A DNA stretch of 13,075 nucleotides from positions 1 to 13,075 of the forward strand of contig DVLP01000073.1 in the NCBI GenBank assembly GCA_018715445.1, written 5' to 3'. The first letter of the stretch is position 1. Each line of letters opens with the position of its first letter. Origin of the DNA: Candidatus Avipropionibacterium avicola (GTDB lineage Bacteria > Actinomycetota > Actinomycetes > Propionibacteriales > Propionibacteriaceae). The position numbers and the translations under genes were made by a program. This document shows positions 5,442-13,075 of this stretch, in pieces. A model generated the notes under the pieces. The model had not been told where the DNA came from, did not search any database, and saw only the letters and a program-made list of their open reading frames with translations.

Positions 5442-5508
5442 CGGTGACCGGCGGGTGAAGCGCAGCCGACGGGTTGACCGTTTCGCCCCTCGGCGCCCGG
5501 AACTGTCC

Positions 5509-5514
5509 TACTGT
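5509..5514 (+). promoter_or_regulatory. -10-like TACTGT before the wall-hydrolase gene
   Basis: TACTGT lies 42 nt before the ATG at 5557, in the 137-bp gap after mazG, and would leave a leader containing the GGAGAGG ribosome-binding site. A TTGACC at 5474-5479 resembles a -35 but is 29 bp away, too far for a normal pair. Confidence 0.3.
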
Positions 5515-5556
5515 GAGGGACCGAACCGTCATCCCCCAACGGAGAGGAACAGCACG

Positions 5557-6480
5557 ATGCACACCTTCAGCAGACGTCGGATGGTCACCCTCACAGCCGC
5601 CCTCGGAGTCGGCGCCACCCTCGCCAGTACGGCCTCGCCCCGCTCGTGGGCGGCGAACAACAACGAGACCGCGTGGAACTTCTTCACCGGCAAGGGCCTG
5701 TCCCAGGCCCAGACCGCCGGCCTGATCGGCAACTTCATCGTCGAGTCCGGTGCCGACCCCATCAACCCGGCCTCCGAGCAGCACGGCGGTGGCCCCGGCC
5801 GCGGCATCGCGCAGTGGGAGGGCAGCCGACGCTCCGAGCTGTACGCCTACGCCGACTCCCGCGGCCTGGCCTGGTCGAACCTCGGTCTCCAGCTGGACTT
5901 CGTGTGGAAGGAGTTCACCAGCACCGAGAGCGCCGCCCTCGCCAAGATCAAGGCCACCACCACGCCCAGCGCAGCAGCCGTCGCGGTCCGCAAGTACTAC
6001 GAGCGGCCCTCCGCCCATGCCGACCAGGCCCGCATCAGCGCCGCAGAGCTGATCTACTCGCGGTACGGGGACGGCTCAACCCCGCCGCCGTCCGACACCA
6101 CCTTCCCGCTGCTCAAGAGCGGTGCCTCCGGCGCGGCGGTCACCACCGCGCAGTACCTGCTGCGTGGCAAGGGACAGAAGCTGGACGTCGACGGCCGCTT
6201 CGGCCCCGGGACCCTGGCCGCGGCCAAGGCCTTCCAGAAGGCGCAGGGCCTGGTGGTCGACGGGGTCATCGGTCCCCGCACCTGGTTGGCCCTGGTCCCG
6301 AAGCTGCGCAACGGCTCGAAGGGCGACGCCGTCCGTGCCCTGCAGAGCGAGTTGAAGATCGAGATCGACGGCAGCTTCGGCCCGGCCACCGAGAAGGCGG
6401 TCCGCAGCCATCAGGACAAGGCCGGACTCGAGGTCGACGGCGTGGTCGGACCCATCACCTGGGGCAGCCTGATCAGCTGA
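5557..6480 (+). CDS. Secreted peptidoglycan hydrolase: phage-tail-lysozyme-type domain plus two peptidoglycan-binding domains
   Basis: The 307-residue protein starts at ATG 5557, with GGAGAGG 9 nt upstream. The N-terminus S5-RRRMV followed by a hydrophobic stretch (10-26) and a likely cut after SWA (30-32) looks like a twin-arginine signal peptide. Residues about 35-170 resemble the phage-tail-lysozyme (Phage_lysozyme2) fold: ETAWNFFTGKGLS, then GLIGNFIVESG with the probable catalytic Glu63, then GRGIAQWEGSRR (81-92). Two PG_binding_1 domains follow at about 185-245 and 248-307, each with the DG-x-F/I-GP signature. It should cleave cell-wall glycan outside the membrane. It sits between mazG and eno, the place of the lytic transglycosylase gene lpqU in M. 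tuberculosis. Despite the domain name there is no phage context. Domain calls are strong; exact bond specificity is inferred. Confidence 0.9.
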   Translation: MHTFSRRRMVTLTAALGVGATLASTASPRSWAANNNETAWNFFTGKGLSQAQTAGLIGNFIVESGADPINPASEQHGGGPGRGIAQWEGSRRSELYAYADSRGLAWSNLGLQLDFVWKEFTSTESAALAKIKATTTPSAAAVAVRKYYERPSAHADQARISAAELIYSRYGDGSTPPPSDTTFPLLKSGASGAAVTTAQYLLRGKGQKLDVDGRFGPGTLAAAKAFQKAQGLVVDGVIGPRTWLALVPKLRNGSKGDAVRALQSELKIEIDGSFGPATEKAVRSHQDKAGLEVDGVVGPITWGSLIS

Positions 6481-6512: not shown

Positions 6513-6581
6513 CCCCGAGCTCGTCGAGGGGCTAACGATCCCCGAGCTCGAGGGCTTACGACTCCCGAGCTCGTCGAGGGG
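6513..6581. repeat. Mini-array of the 19-bp element between convergent genes
   Basis: Three direct copies lie here. 6513-6531 is perfect CCCCGAGCTCGTCGAGGGG, 6540-6554 lacks internal bases, and 6563-6581 differs at the first base. The 8-bp spacers CTAACGAT and CTTACGAC are alike, so the repeating unit is really 23-27 bp. The last copy ends exactly beside the stop codon of the minus-strand gene. Its position between two convergent genes suits a bidirectional transcription stop. Confidence 0.85.
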
Positions 6582-7113: not shown

Positions 7114-7160
7114 CGACCCCCGAGCTCGAGTGCCCGACGACCCCCGAGCTCGTCGAGGGG
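7114..7160. repeat. Second cluster of the 19-bp element
   Basis: A 15-bp direct repeat CGACCCCCGAGCTCG occurs at 7114-7128 and 7138-7152. The second continues into a perfect 19-bp element (7142-7160); the first is cut short after CTCGAG. The base context (CGAC before, CAACGAT after) matches the 6513-6581 cluster, so both belong to one family. It lies upstream of the minus-strand membrane gene. Confidence 0.8.
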
Positions 7161-7568: not shown

Positions 7569-9032
<1,464 letters not shown>

Positions 9033-11182: not shown

Positions 11183-11257
11183 CCGGTGCCCGGCGACCGA
11201 GGAACCCGTGAAACCGGACCGGGTGAAACCGAGTCCCGCGCAGTTGGCAGTCGACAC

Positions 11258-11263
11258 TAGGGT
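11258..11263 (+). promoter_or_regulatory. -10-like TAGGGT for a leaderless start at 11271
   Basis: TAGGGT is followed by 7 nt and the ATG at 11271, with no Shine-Dalgarno sequence between. A TTGGCA at 11244-11249 is too close (8 bp) to be its -35. Confidence 0.45.
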
Positions 11264-11270
11264 GGTCACC

Positions 11271-12503
11271 ATGTGGCGCAGGATCCCGGTTCGCAAGATC
11301 GTGACCCGTACGGCGTTGGCCGTGGCCGCCGTACAGGCAGGGACCCTTGCGGCGCTGGCCGTGGTCGACCACCGTCGCAAGCGGAACCGTCGCCCGGCAG
11401 CCTTCCCACGGGTCGCCCCGCACAGTGTGACCGCCGGTGGCTCGGAGGTGACGCTGTACACGTACGGCGAGGACCTCTACTACGACATGCTCTCGGCGAT
11501 CCGCCACGCCAAGAAGCGGATCTTCTTCGAGACCTTCATCTGGAAGTCCGACCCGATCGGTCAGGCGTTCAAGGATGCGCTGATCCAGGCGGCTGACCGC
11601 GGCGTCGAGGTCTACGTCATCTACGACGTCTTCGCCAACCTGGTCGTCCCGCCGTCGTTCTACCGTTTCCCCGACAACATCCACGTCCTGCGTTATCCCT
11701 TGTTCGGCGGGGGAGCGATGTTCTGGCACCCGCGTCACTCCGGACGTGATCACCGCAAGCTGGTCGTGGTCGACGAGGACGTGGCCTATGTCGGTGGCTA
11801 CAACATCGGATCGCTGTACGCGACGGACTGGCGCGACACGCACTCCCGGTTGACCGGCGACATCGTCACCGAGATGCAGAACGCCTTCATCGACTTCTGG
11901 AACCTGTCCGGGCCGCGTCAGCCCGAGCTGGAGGACCCGAAGACCCGTACCTGGGTGCCGAACTTCCGGGTGCACCGCAACCTGCCGCGGCACTACGTGT
12001 ACCCGATCCGTGGGATGTATCTGGAGGCGATCGACCGCGCCCAGCACCACGTCTACCTGACCCATGCCTACCTGGTCCCGGACCGCGACATGCGCGATGC
12101 CCTCACCAAGGCGGTGGAGCGCGGCGTCGACGTCCGGGTCATCGTGCCGGCCGAGTCGAACCACATCGTTGCCGACTGGCTGTCACGCGGCTTCTACAGC
12201 CATCTGTTCAAGGGTGGGGTCCGGCTGTTCCTCTACCAAGGGGCCATGGTGCATGCCAAGACCGCCACCATCGACGGCGAATGGTCCACCGTCGGCACCG
12301 CCAACATCGACCGGCTCTCCCTCACCGGCAACTACGAGATCAACGTCGAGATCTTCGACGCCGACACCGCCCGTCAGATGGAACGCATCTTCGACGTCGA
12401 CGCCGGCAACTGCGTCGAACTCACCCTCGAGCACTGGCAGCGGCGCAACCCCCTGATGAAGGTCTCCGAAGCGATCCTCACCCCGTTCCGCCCCTTCGTC
12501 TGA
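11271..12503 (+). CDS. Phospholipase D-like / cardiolipin synthase-type protein
   Basis: The 410-residue protein has one N-terminal membrane anchor (about 11-32) and two phospholipase D modules. Both HKD motifs are complete: HRKLVVVD (161-168), followed by VAYVGGYNIG, and HAKTATID (328-335), followed by STVGTANID. This layout and length resemble ClsB-type cardiolipin synthases, which transfer phosphatidyl groups at the membrane; other PLD transferases cannot be excluded. ATG 11271 is chosen because it has the TAGGGT box at leaderless spacing and leads straight into the anchor. A GTG at 11208 would add 21 residues of basic peptide and lies upstream of that box. The gap from ppx is 88 bp, so it is probably its own unit. 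A strong hairpin follows the stop. Confidence 0.92.
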   Translation: MWRRIPVRKIVTRTALAVAAVQAGTLAALAVVDHRRKRNRRPAAFPRVAPHSVTAGGSEVTLYTYGEDLYYDMLSAIRHAKKRIFFETFIWKSDPIGQAFKDALIQAADRGVEVYVIYDVFANLVVPPSFYRFPDNIHVLRYPLFGGGAMFWHPRHSGRDHRKLVVVDEDVAYVGGYNIGSLYATDWRDTHSRLTGDIVTEMQNAFIDFWNLSGPRQPELEDPKTRTWVPNFRVHRNLPRHYVYPIRGMYLEAIDRAQHHVYLTHAYLVPDRDMRDALTKAVERGVDVRVIVPAESNHIVADWLSRGFYSHLFKGGVRLFLYQGAMVHAKTATIDGEWSTVGTANIDRLSLTGNYEINVEIFDADTARQMERIFDVDAGNCVELTLEHWQRRNPLMKVSEAILTPFRPFV

Positions 12504-12504
12504 C

Positions 12505-12532
12505 CCCCTCGACCCCCGAGCTCGTCGAGGGG
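12505..12532 (+). terminator. Strong hairpin after the phospholipase D-like gene
   Basis: CCCCTCGAC (12505-12513) pairs perfectly with GTCGAGGGG (12524-12532) around a 10-nt loop, starting 1 bp after the stop. The right arm is the end of a 19-bp element, so this copy is part of the terminator. No T-run follows. Confidence 0.6.
12514..12532 (+). repeat. 19-bp element, opens unit A
   Basis: Perfect CCCCGAGCTCGTCGAGGGG. It starts the first ~220-bp unit and also supplies the right arm of the terminator hairpin at 12505-12532. Confidence 0.9.
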
Positions 12533-12551
12533 CATGCACCCCCACCTCCGA

Positions 12552-12729
12552 GCCTGGACCAACTCCGGTACGGATGGAGGTCCGCACATGGTTGGTGGGG
12601 CCAGCAAGCCGCCTGGTGGGTCCGCCCCTCGCCGACGCGTTGCGTTCCCACACTGGGGATTGCGGACCTCATCGTTGCTGTGCGGACCTCCGGGCCCAGG
12701 CCCGCACTTCCGTACCCCCAGCCCAGGCC
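12552..12729. other. Nested inverted repeats of unit A (possible structured RNA or cruciform)
   Basis: Four nested pairings are visible: GCCTGG 12552-12557 with CCAGGC 12724-12729; GGTACGGA 12567-12574 with TCCGTACC 12709-12716; a perfect 13-bp arm 12576-12588 with 12679-12691; and GGTCCGC 12619-12625 with GCGGACC 12662-12668. Together they would fold about 178 nt into one long branched hairpin. Whether it is transcribed is unknown. Confidence 0.6.
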
Positions 12730-12736
12730 TTCCGCC

Positions 12737-12755
12737 CCCCGAGCTCGTCGAGGGG
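12737..12755 (+). repeat. 19-bp element, opens unit B
   Basis: Perfect copy, 223 bp after the copy at 12514. Confidence 0.9.
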
Positions 12756-12800
12756 CATGCACCCCGCCTCCGAGCCTGGACCAACTCCGGTACGGACGAA

Positions 12801-12909
12801 GGTCCGCATACGGCTGGTGAGATGAGCAAGCCGCATGGTAGGTCCGCCCCTTTCCGATGCGTTGCGTTCCCACACTGGGGATTGCGGACCTCACCGCGCT
12901 GTGCGGACC
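12801..12909. other. Heptamer pairs of unit B
   Basis: GGTCCGC at 12801-12807 and 12841-12847, and GCGGACC at 12884-12890 and 12903-12909, keep the order and near-exact spacing seen in unit A. The surrounding bases differ, and the two outer pairings of unit A are lost here. Confidence 0.65.
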
Positions 12910-12956
12910 TCCGACCCCGGAGCTCGGCCTTCCGCCTCCGGGCCTGCAGTTCCGAT

Positions 12957-12975
12957 CCCCGAGCTCGTCGAGGGG
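12957..12975 (+). repeat. 19-bp element, opens unit C
   Basis: Perfect copy, 220 bp after the copy at 12737. A decayed copy (CCCCGGAGCTCGG, 12915-12927) lies 30 bp before it. Confidence 0.9.
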
Positions 12976-13075
12976 CCTGCACTCCCGTCTCCGAGCCTGG
13001 ACCAACTCCGGTACGGATGGAGGTCCGCACATGGTTGGTGGGGCCAGCAAGCCGCCTGGTGGGTCCGCCCCTCGC

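Follow-up and report, generated by a model that had tools for sequence, protein, structure and literature searches.

Direct repeats of one site about two helical turns apart, set in inverted arms, are the layout of iteron-type and transposon-end binding arrays, and the ends of Tn7-type elements likewise carry several binding sites of about 20 bp, comparable in layout to the core arms described here. Another described system is the super-family of CGTC-tagged REPs (Di Nocera et al. 2013, PMC3733652). In the portion of that paper used here, these repeats have an unpaired CGTC (or TGTC/CCTC) tag, a stem of 8 to 9 bp, and a loop of 4 to 5 nt, and they occur predominantly as head-to-head dimers, with head-tail arrangements negligible; they are named for five phyla, and the word Actinobacteria is absent from the main text. 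The array that starts in the DNA studied here consists of units of about 220 bp, each pairing a 19-bp REP-like element with a 116-bp element of six half-sites. Our preferred reading, to which we give an about even chance, is that this composite was likely duplicated between pld and glsB and that its six half-sites are predicted protein-docking sites.

The window, meaning the whole stretch of 13,075 bases that was analyzed, is an entire contig (C462) of the assembly of Candidatus Avipropionibacterium avicola, here called G000, which comprises 469 contigs and 3,246,910 bases. The features needed below are as follows.

6513..6531, + strand, further copy of the 19-bp element
6563..6581, + strand, further copy of the 19-bp element, 1 mismatch
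7142..7160, + strand, further copy of the 19-bp element
11208..12503, + strand, PLD-like gene (pld), upstream neighbor of the array and synteny anchor with the sister species
12514..12736, + strand, unit A, 223 bp: 19-bp element, spacer, 116-bp six-site core, spacer
12514..12532, + strand, 19-bp REP-like element of unit A, preceded by CGAC
12576..12691, + strand, core A, 116 bp, outer arms GGAGGTCCGCAC and GTGCGGACCTCC; half-sites start at 12579, 12599, and 12619 (forward) and at 12642, 12662, and 12682 (reverse)
12737..12956, + strand, unit B, 220 bp, diverged
12737..12755, + strand, 19-bp REP-like element of unit B, preceded by CGCC
12798..12912, + strand, core B, 115 bp; half-sites start at 12801, 12821 (degenerate), 12841, 12864, 12884, and 12903
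12957..13075, + strand, unit C, truncated at the contig end
12957..12975, + strand, 19-bp REP-like element of unit C, preceded by CGAT
12989..13075, + strand, 87-bp stretch equal to 12546-12632, running to the contig end and of uncertain reliability
13019..13075, + strand, left arm of core C, model positions 1-57, truncated by the contig end

The tandem array in the window is genuine. As the initial annotation had described, three direct units are each opened by the same element, CCCCGAGCTCGTCGAGGGG, with copies at 12514, 12737, and 12957 and steps of 223 and 220 bp, and Tandem Repeats Finder reports an array at 12510-13075 with a period of 222, 2.6 copies, 84% matches, and a score of 844 against a reporting threshold of 50. 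Unit B, flanked by A and C, had correctly been called diverged and is 88% identical to A across 135 bp. The identity of A and C, given earlier as 86 bp, is real and its true extent is 87 bp (12546-12632 and 12989-13075); five differences between the two units lie between 12513 and 12545. Since the window is the entire contig, this identity stops where the assembly stops.

The proposal that the array runs on past the window draws support from another contig of the same assembly, C182, whose end the 222-bp unit matches twice in tandem (8308-8700, minus strand), giving two further units. The reverse complement of C182 opens exactly with the 19-bp element, carries a second copy at 220, and reaches at 626 the start codon of a gene that we take to be glsB. 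In a sister species of the same genus (G001), pld is followed by a 112-nt gap, a glsB-like gene, and then the other C182 genes in unchanged order, and in G003, from another genus, pld also adjoins genes of C182. Based on this synteny, C462 and C182 are very probably neighbors, and pld and glsB, two codirectional genes, very probably enclose four or more array units: A, B, and the pair on C182. If the two contigs are adjacent, the array occupies what is the 112-nt gap in G001. Many copies elsewhere had been named as support for a mobile repeat. Both halves of the unit are dispersed in G000, and the full-length unit was matched in G000 alone among the 57 genomes of the relatives search, with a 32-bp match at the unit start in G021.

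The 19-bp element works like a REP, being abundant, mostly intergenic, and close behind gene ends. Its 18-bp version has 96 exact copies in G000 compared to 0 for a reversed control, and at up to 3 mismatches the 19-bp element occupies 309 places compared to 12 control hits. Only 22 of 145 copies lie inside predicted open reading frames; the median distance to the nearest gene 3' end is 31.5 nt (86 copies), and 37 of 93 copies, compared to 32 of 133 background gene pairs, lie between convergent genes, figures that come from 243 kb of stretches selected for containing copies and from crude calling of open reading frames. By inspection, its stem consists of CCCC/GGGG, then GA opposite GA, then one G-C pair, with no Watson-Crick stem of 8 to 9 bp. 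No match to Y1_Tnp (PF01797, of the IS200/IS605 type, which includes the REP transposase, RAYT) was found in G000, a 91%-complete assembly; a control search was positive in 5 of 14 genomes. Five G000 contigs (C75, C184, C370, C469, and C182) end at a 19-bp element or within 11 bases of one. The repeat probably fragments this assembly.

The exact 18-mer occurs in 4 of the 57 genomes of the relatives search, including G000, with 1, 3, and 1 copies in the other three and zero in G001, and a version with Y/R at varying positions matches 12 of 396 genomes of the phylum (194 copies in G000, then 24 and 7). An A+T-richer form, CCCTGAGCTTGTCGAAGGG, is found in records of many phyla, in at least 120 stretches. 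It differs from the 19-bp element at three positions, two of which make up the outer pair 4/16 (C-G in one, T-A in the other), and this pair is also T-A in related 19-mers of other genomes; we infer common descent of the two forms. In Bacteroidetes bacterium 47-18, CCCTGAGCTTGTCGAAGGG opens the units, of about 127 bp, of a tandem array (L234:1931-2688), and on a contig from an uncultured Microbacterium a related 19-mer occurs three times at a 95-bp step (L225:7545-7735).

The other half of the unit, the core, consists of six GGNNNGC half-sites in two converging arms, with spacings of 20, 20, 23, 20, and 20. Fourteen aligned G000 cores have a mean column identity of 76%, and most columns with little or no variation spell GG...GC on the left and GC...CC on the right. 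Information averages 1.88 bits in the 24 anchor columns, 1.67 in the 42 motif columns, and 1.00 in the 74 other columns, as computed from the 13 of 16 copies with a length of exactly 116 bp, some of which are closely related. Correlation within the core peaks at a lag of 20 on the left and 20 to 21 on the right. Conserved anchors recur at a fixed spacing. The outer ends of core A are inverted over 12 of 12 bp and imperfect in several other copies. No consistent neighbor gene was noticed in the lists of open reading frames around the cores.

A covariance model (R1), built from cores without the 19-mer and counting a place once if both strands match, found 24 core places in G000 and 12 in G001 at an E value of ≤0.01, and a wider search with stricter filtering found a core match in 6 of 197 genomes of the family. 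Core and 19-bp element are strongly associated in the G000 species: 18 of the 24 cores have an element (≤3 mismatches) within 60 bp, where about 0.01 to 0.07 per core would be expected, one more has an element at 131 bp, and the remaining five have none in the up to 400 bp available. The two parts are nevertheless separable, because G001 has cores and zero exact elements. Direct repeats of 20 bp extend beyond the cores at C182 and at one G001 place, G001:C68:1578-1693 (L155), where a direct tandem of the 20-bp step GCAGGCCAGCACATGGTGCG lies beside the core. The latter tandem suggests that core arms can grow by single 20-bp steps.

The half-sites of the two sister species differ in their word. 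Of the half-sites with intact anchors, G000 has C at position 5 in 92 of 111 (the GGTCCGC type, in 22 of 24 cores) and G001 has A there in 39 of 45 (the GGCCAGC type, in 10 of 12 cores); the comparison leaves out C386 and, on grounds of length, C322 and two short cores of G001, and a Fisher value on position 5 is overstated since copies within one genome are related. Because R1 fixes the spacing and favors the G000 word, the G001 word was found against the bias of the model and the spacing with it: the spacing of the G001 copies partly reflects how they were found, with shifts of 1 bp allowed in placement. The same word difference appears at a place that the two species likely share (C375a and G001:C1), where one flank is 89.9% identical across 1,530 bp, a weaker match of 66.7% across 393 bp lies in the opposite orientation, and the flanking gene reads by eye as infA. 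It is the 1 shared flank in a comparison of 18 G000 contig places with 12 G001 places.

Genome-wide counts of GTGCGGACCTC, an end word of G000 cores, do not show a word change between the two species. There are 21 copies in G000 (control, 2) and 18 in G001 (control, 0); 14 of the G000 copies lie within the 23 cores examined, and none of those in G001 was found within its 12 cores or in the 53.5 kb of its stretches examined, which places the G001 copies elsewhere in that genome. We do not take such bare counts as evidence, because GTGCGGACCTC occurs in 53 of 57 relatives, often above its reversed control.

Converging arms built on yet another word are seen outside the genus. The 10-mer CTTGGGAACC has 20 hits in G071, from another genus, compared to 6 for the control, in clusters at steps of about 20 or 40 bp; elsewhere the counts are 9 compared to 3 (G007), 2 compared to 1 (G030), and, below control, 3 compared to 7 (G113), and the 10-mer was itself picked from the second-genus hits of R1, which are weak (E values of 2.5e-4 to 0.009). 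Among 17 stretches, which covered 20 of 20 CTTGGGAACC places in G071, 3 of 3 in G113, 3 of 9 in G007, and 1 of 2 in G030, seven have converging GGTTCCCAA-like arms with up to 2 mismatches per site and steps of 19 to 22 bp (five in G071, one in G113, and one in G007). The dispersed G071 arms, on C47, C59, C137, C223, and C279 (L333, L334, L337, L340, and L342), consist of 2 forward and 2 to 5 regularly spaced reverse GGTTCCCAA sites. The best second-genus hit of R1, in G030, lacks GGTTCCCAA-like arms. A tentative extension, which we hold to be rather improbable as it stands, is that the core represents one lineage of an undescribed class of actinobacterial chromosomal elements, intergenic and dispersed, with half-sites some two DNA turns apart in converging arms; each lineage would keep the spacing and exchange the word (GGTCCGC, GGCCAGC, or GGTTCCCAA) in every copy, because a fast-changing protein acting in trans would read it.

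Other origins were considered and rejected. Open reading frames cross the array on both strands, and three that were tested match no Pfam family, in agreement with the earlier view that the array is noncoding; the frame shifts between units because 223 and 220 are not multiples of 3. A phage or plasmid origin found no match in a phage or plasmid collection. Elsewhere in the window, the gene at 5455-6480 encodes a domain resembling phage tail lysozyme along with two peptidoglycan-binding stretches.

A constant half-site spacing and the difference in word between sister elements argue for the core as a putative protein-docking array, and the suggestion in the initial annotation of an array of protein-binding sites keeps its place on these sequence grounds. 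A candidate sequence-specific protein, either a host factor or a transposase, would read half-sites about two DNA turns apart, and a changed specificity of that protein could lead the elements of one species to share one word. Against this, the step of about 20 bp could reflect a history of tandem duplication, given the repeats at C182 and G001:C68, GTGCGGACCTC is about equally frequent in G001 and G000, and several cores fold far better than shuffled sequences. The last point favors a reading of the core as structured RNA or as a transcription terminator working in both directions, in either case a long hairpin, sited where genes end, that would halt or stabilize transcripts arriving from either side. 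Unit A folds at -69.1 kcal/mol (z score, -4.7), and z is below -2 in 12 of 16 of the species' own copies. Values for single cores include -6.1 (g1C68), -4.6 (C182_1), -1.1 (C135_1), and -0.4 (C44). The proposed pairs hold in 84.7% of alignment cells compared to 27 to 49% when the partner is slid, yet shuffles reach 84.9%, and none of five measures is clearly above shuffles. Pairs changed on both sides number 4 compared to 2.6 in shuffles (82 of 500 shuffles reach 4), half-sites match their hairpin partners at 5.77 of 7 positions and nonpartners at 5.62 of 7, and in helix 3 two central pairs are broken in 9 to 10 of 14 sequences; the 13-nt spacers match partners slightly better than nonpartners (0.38 compared to 0.27). 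Because one word is repeated in both directions, the palindrome of the core is explained without selection for a hairpin. Gene orientation gives the terminator some support, with 10 of the 17 places where both neighbors were called lying between convergent genes and 0 between divergent ones, in a sample of 29 entries of which 4 are inside a predicted open reading frame and 8 are without a neighbor, C277 and C322 being omitted. However, the convergent places are mostly those of G001 (7 of 10), with G000 contributing 3 of its 7, and the P value of 0.002 for the excess is not a clean test, the background of 32 in 133 coming from G000 only; the pld array itself sits between codirectional genes. 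In Rfam, the window from 12400 to 13075 drew only MIR8622, at 23 bits against a gathering score of 197 (E value, 0.058). With pairing and covariation not above shuffles and no Rfam family at cutoff, the noncoding RNA option offered earlier is disfavored, and we consider a hairpin function, whether RNA or terminator, unlikely to explain the core, which may still have a terminator-like role.

How the composite came to be an array is a separate matter, and here sequence identities point to duplication in place. Cores of the pld array are 83 to 90% identical to one another, with the best outside copy at 83%, and those of a second composite run, which reaches a contig end (G000:C135:12333-12687, L053; 19-mers at 12333, 12374, and 12517, with a partial copy at 12681; two cores spaced 164 bp, at 12398 and 12562), are 91% identical to each other with a best outside value of 74%. 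At G000:C348:1-526 (L064), three successive cores at steps of 227 and 159 each follow by 2 bp a 19-bp element with 1 to 2 mismatches; they are 76 to 83% identical mutually, up to 87% to C113, and 84% to C216, and because they are no closer to one another than to those copies, local duplication is not supported there. Pooled, the three arrays have a mean core identity of 85% within (10 pairs) compared to 70% (110 pairs). A single-copy full unit at C450 matches at 77% across 205 bp. The units of the pld array were thus probably duplicated in place: a dispersed composite of 19-bp element and core would have existed first and would then have been duplicated between pld and glsB, by unequal recombination or slippage. 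A nonautonomous repeat amplified in place, one of the options originally listed, is therefore the best-fitting description, given the dispersal of both halves, the single unit at C450, and the identities within the array, if mobility is set apart. Mobility proper would make the core a nonautonomous MITE-like element, its arms serving as multisite ends to which a transposase binds. That the two species carry intergenic copies at different places, with only the one shared flank, and that the outer ends in unit A are perfectly inverted speak for this, but no target-site duplication or clean empty site was found, the 112-nt pld-glsB gap of the sister does not align across the junction, and the stretches read contained no visible autonomous partner, with Y1_Tnp, the sole transposase family searched, giving no match; we regard it as doubtful. 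A neutral minisatellite, in which an intergenic region rich in repeats was duplicated in tandem by chance and neither part has a function, fits the diverged units of the Tandem Repeats Finder array, the further runs of such pairs at C135 and C348, and the description, in the part of PMC3733652 used here, of REP clusters reiterated in tandem with flanking DNA. It fails to account for anchors that stay conserved in 14 aligned cores while the spacers vary, or for the word differing between the elements of the two species, and we think it improbable. Recent unequal exchange or conversion, which had been suggested from the identity of A and C, is not established because the contig stops within unit C. 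Over its opening 34 bp (12957-12990), C is identical to the start of the C182 reverse complement, with divergence afterwards, and the 87 bp that equal A then run to the contig end, so unit C cannot serve as an argument on unequal exchange. It could be a genuine fifth unit, or the contig end could be unreliable. Its mosaic makeup, the end of the contig within it, and the termination of five checked contigs within 11 bases of a 19-bp element speak for an assembly error, which would leave the window with only two complete units, a possibility that we hold tentatively and do not favor; against it, the C182 units independently indicate that the array goes on, irrespective of the nature of C.

The initial annotation could match the array to no named element. 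That statement holds for the 116-bp part within the searches made, and it does not hold for the 19-bp part, which is REP-like and of a kind already described. Text searches of the literature with the 19-mer or A+T-richer strings returned unrelated subject matter only, and those with core words returned only unrelated vertebrate and medical subjects, in both cases over article text rather than figures or supplements; six short strings of the 19-mer type are absent from the portion of PMC12306157 covered. We could not find a description of the core element in the literature searched. Taken whole, the array belongs to a known kind, the REP-cluster-like composites. In G000, a G+C-rich 19-mer resembling a repeat of many phyla occupies about 300 places, and G001 has zero exact copies of it. 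The word difference at equal steps points to a specific DNA-reading protein and offers a direct way to seek it.

Compared to the CGTC REPs, as far as the consulted part of PMC3733652 describes them, the 19-bp element is likewise a short, palindrome-like, high-copy-number repeat, mostly intergenic and close behind gene 3' ends, lying between convergent or codirectional genes, preceded by a tetranucleotide that starts with CG (CG at -4/-3 in 128 of 142 copies of the 243 kb selected for containing them), and accompanied by no dedicated or tyrosine transposase in the Y1_Tnp search. Unlike them, it has the exact CGTC tag in only 33 of 142 copies and no 8- to 9-bp stem by inspection, and neighboring copies less than 400 bp apart share one orientation in 61 of 61 pairs rather than standing head to head. 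Because the stem and the head-to-head dimers fail, we do not file it in the CGTC super-family. BIMEs and tandem REP clusters similarly combine REP-type elements with other motifs in intergenic mosaics that may be reiterated in tandem, but BIMEs alternate their REPs, whereas neighboring copies here all point one way, and the partner motif here is a six-site element that also occurs without the 19-mer. The array of Bacteroidetes bacterium 47-18 shares near-constant units and an opening 19-mer three positions different, although its unit is A+T-richer and has no visible six-site core. Like ERIC, RU-1 (127 bp; PMC2759123), and other MITE-like intergenic repeats, the core falls at 100 to 130 bp, is an imperfect palindrome, and is dispersed between genes. 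In contrast to them, it is built of six iterated half-sites with a species-dependent word, and no target duplication was found. With iteron and transposon-end arrays the core shares the repetition of one site at about two turns in inverted arms, but it is dispersed intergenically, and no link with an origin, a transposon, or any single gene was apparent. REP-type repeats and their clusters are already known; here a REP-like element is paired with an element whose word differs between sister species while its steps remain equal.
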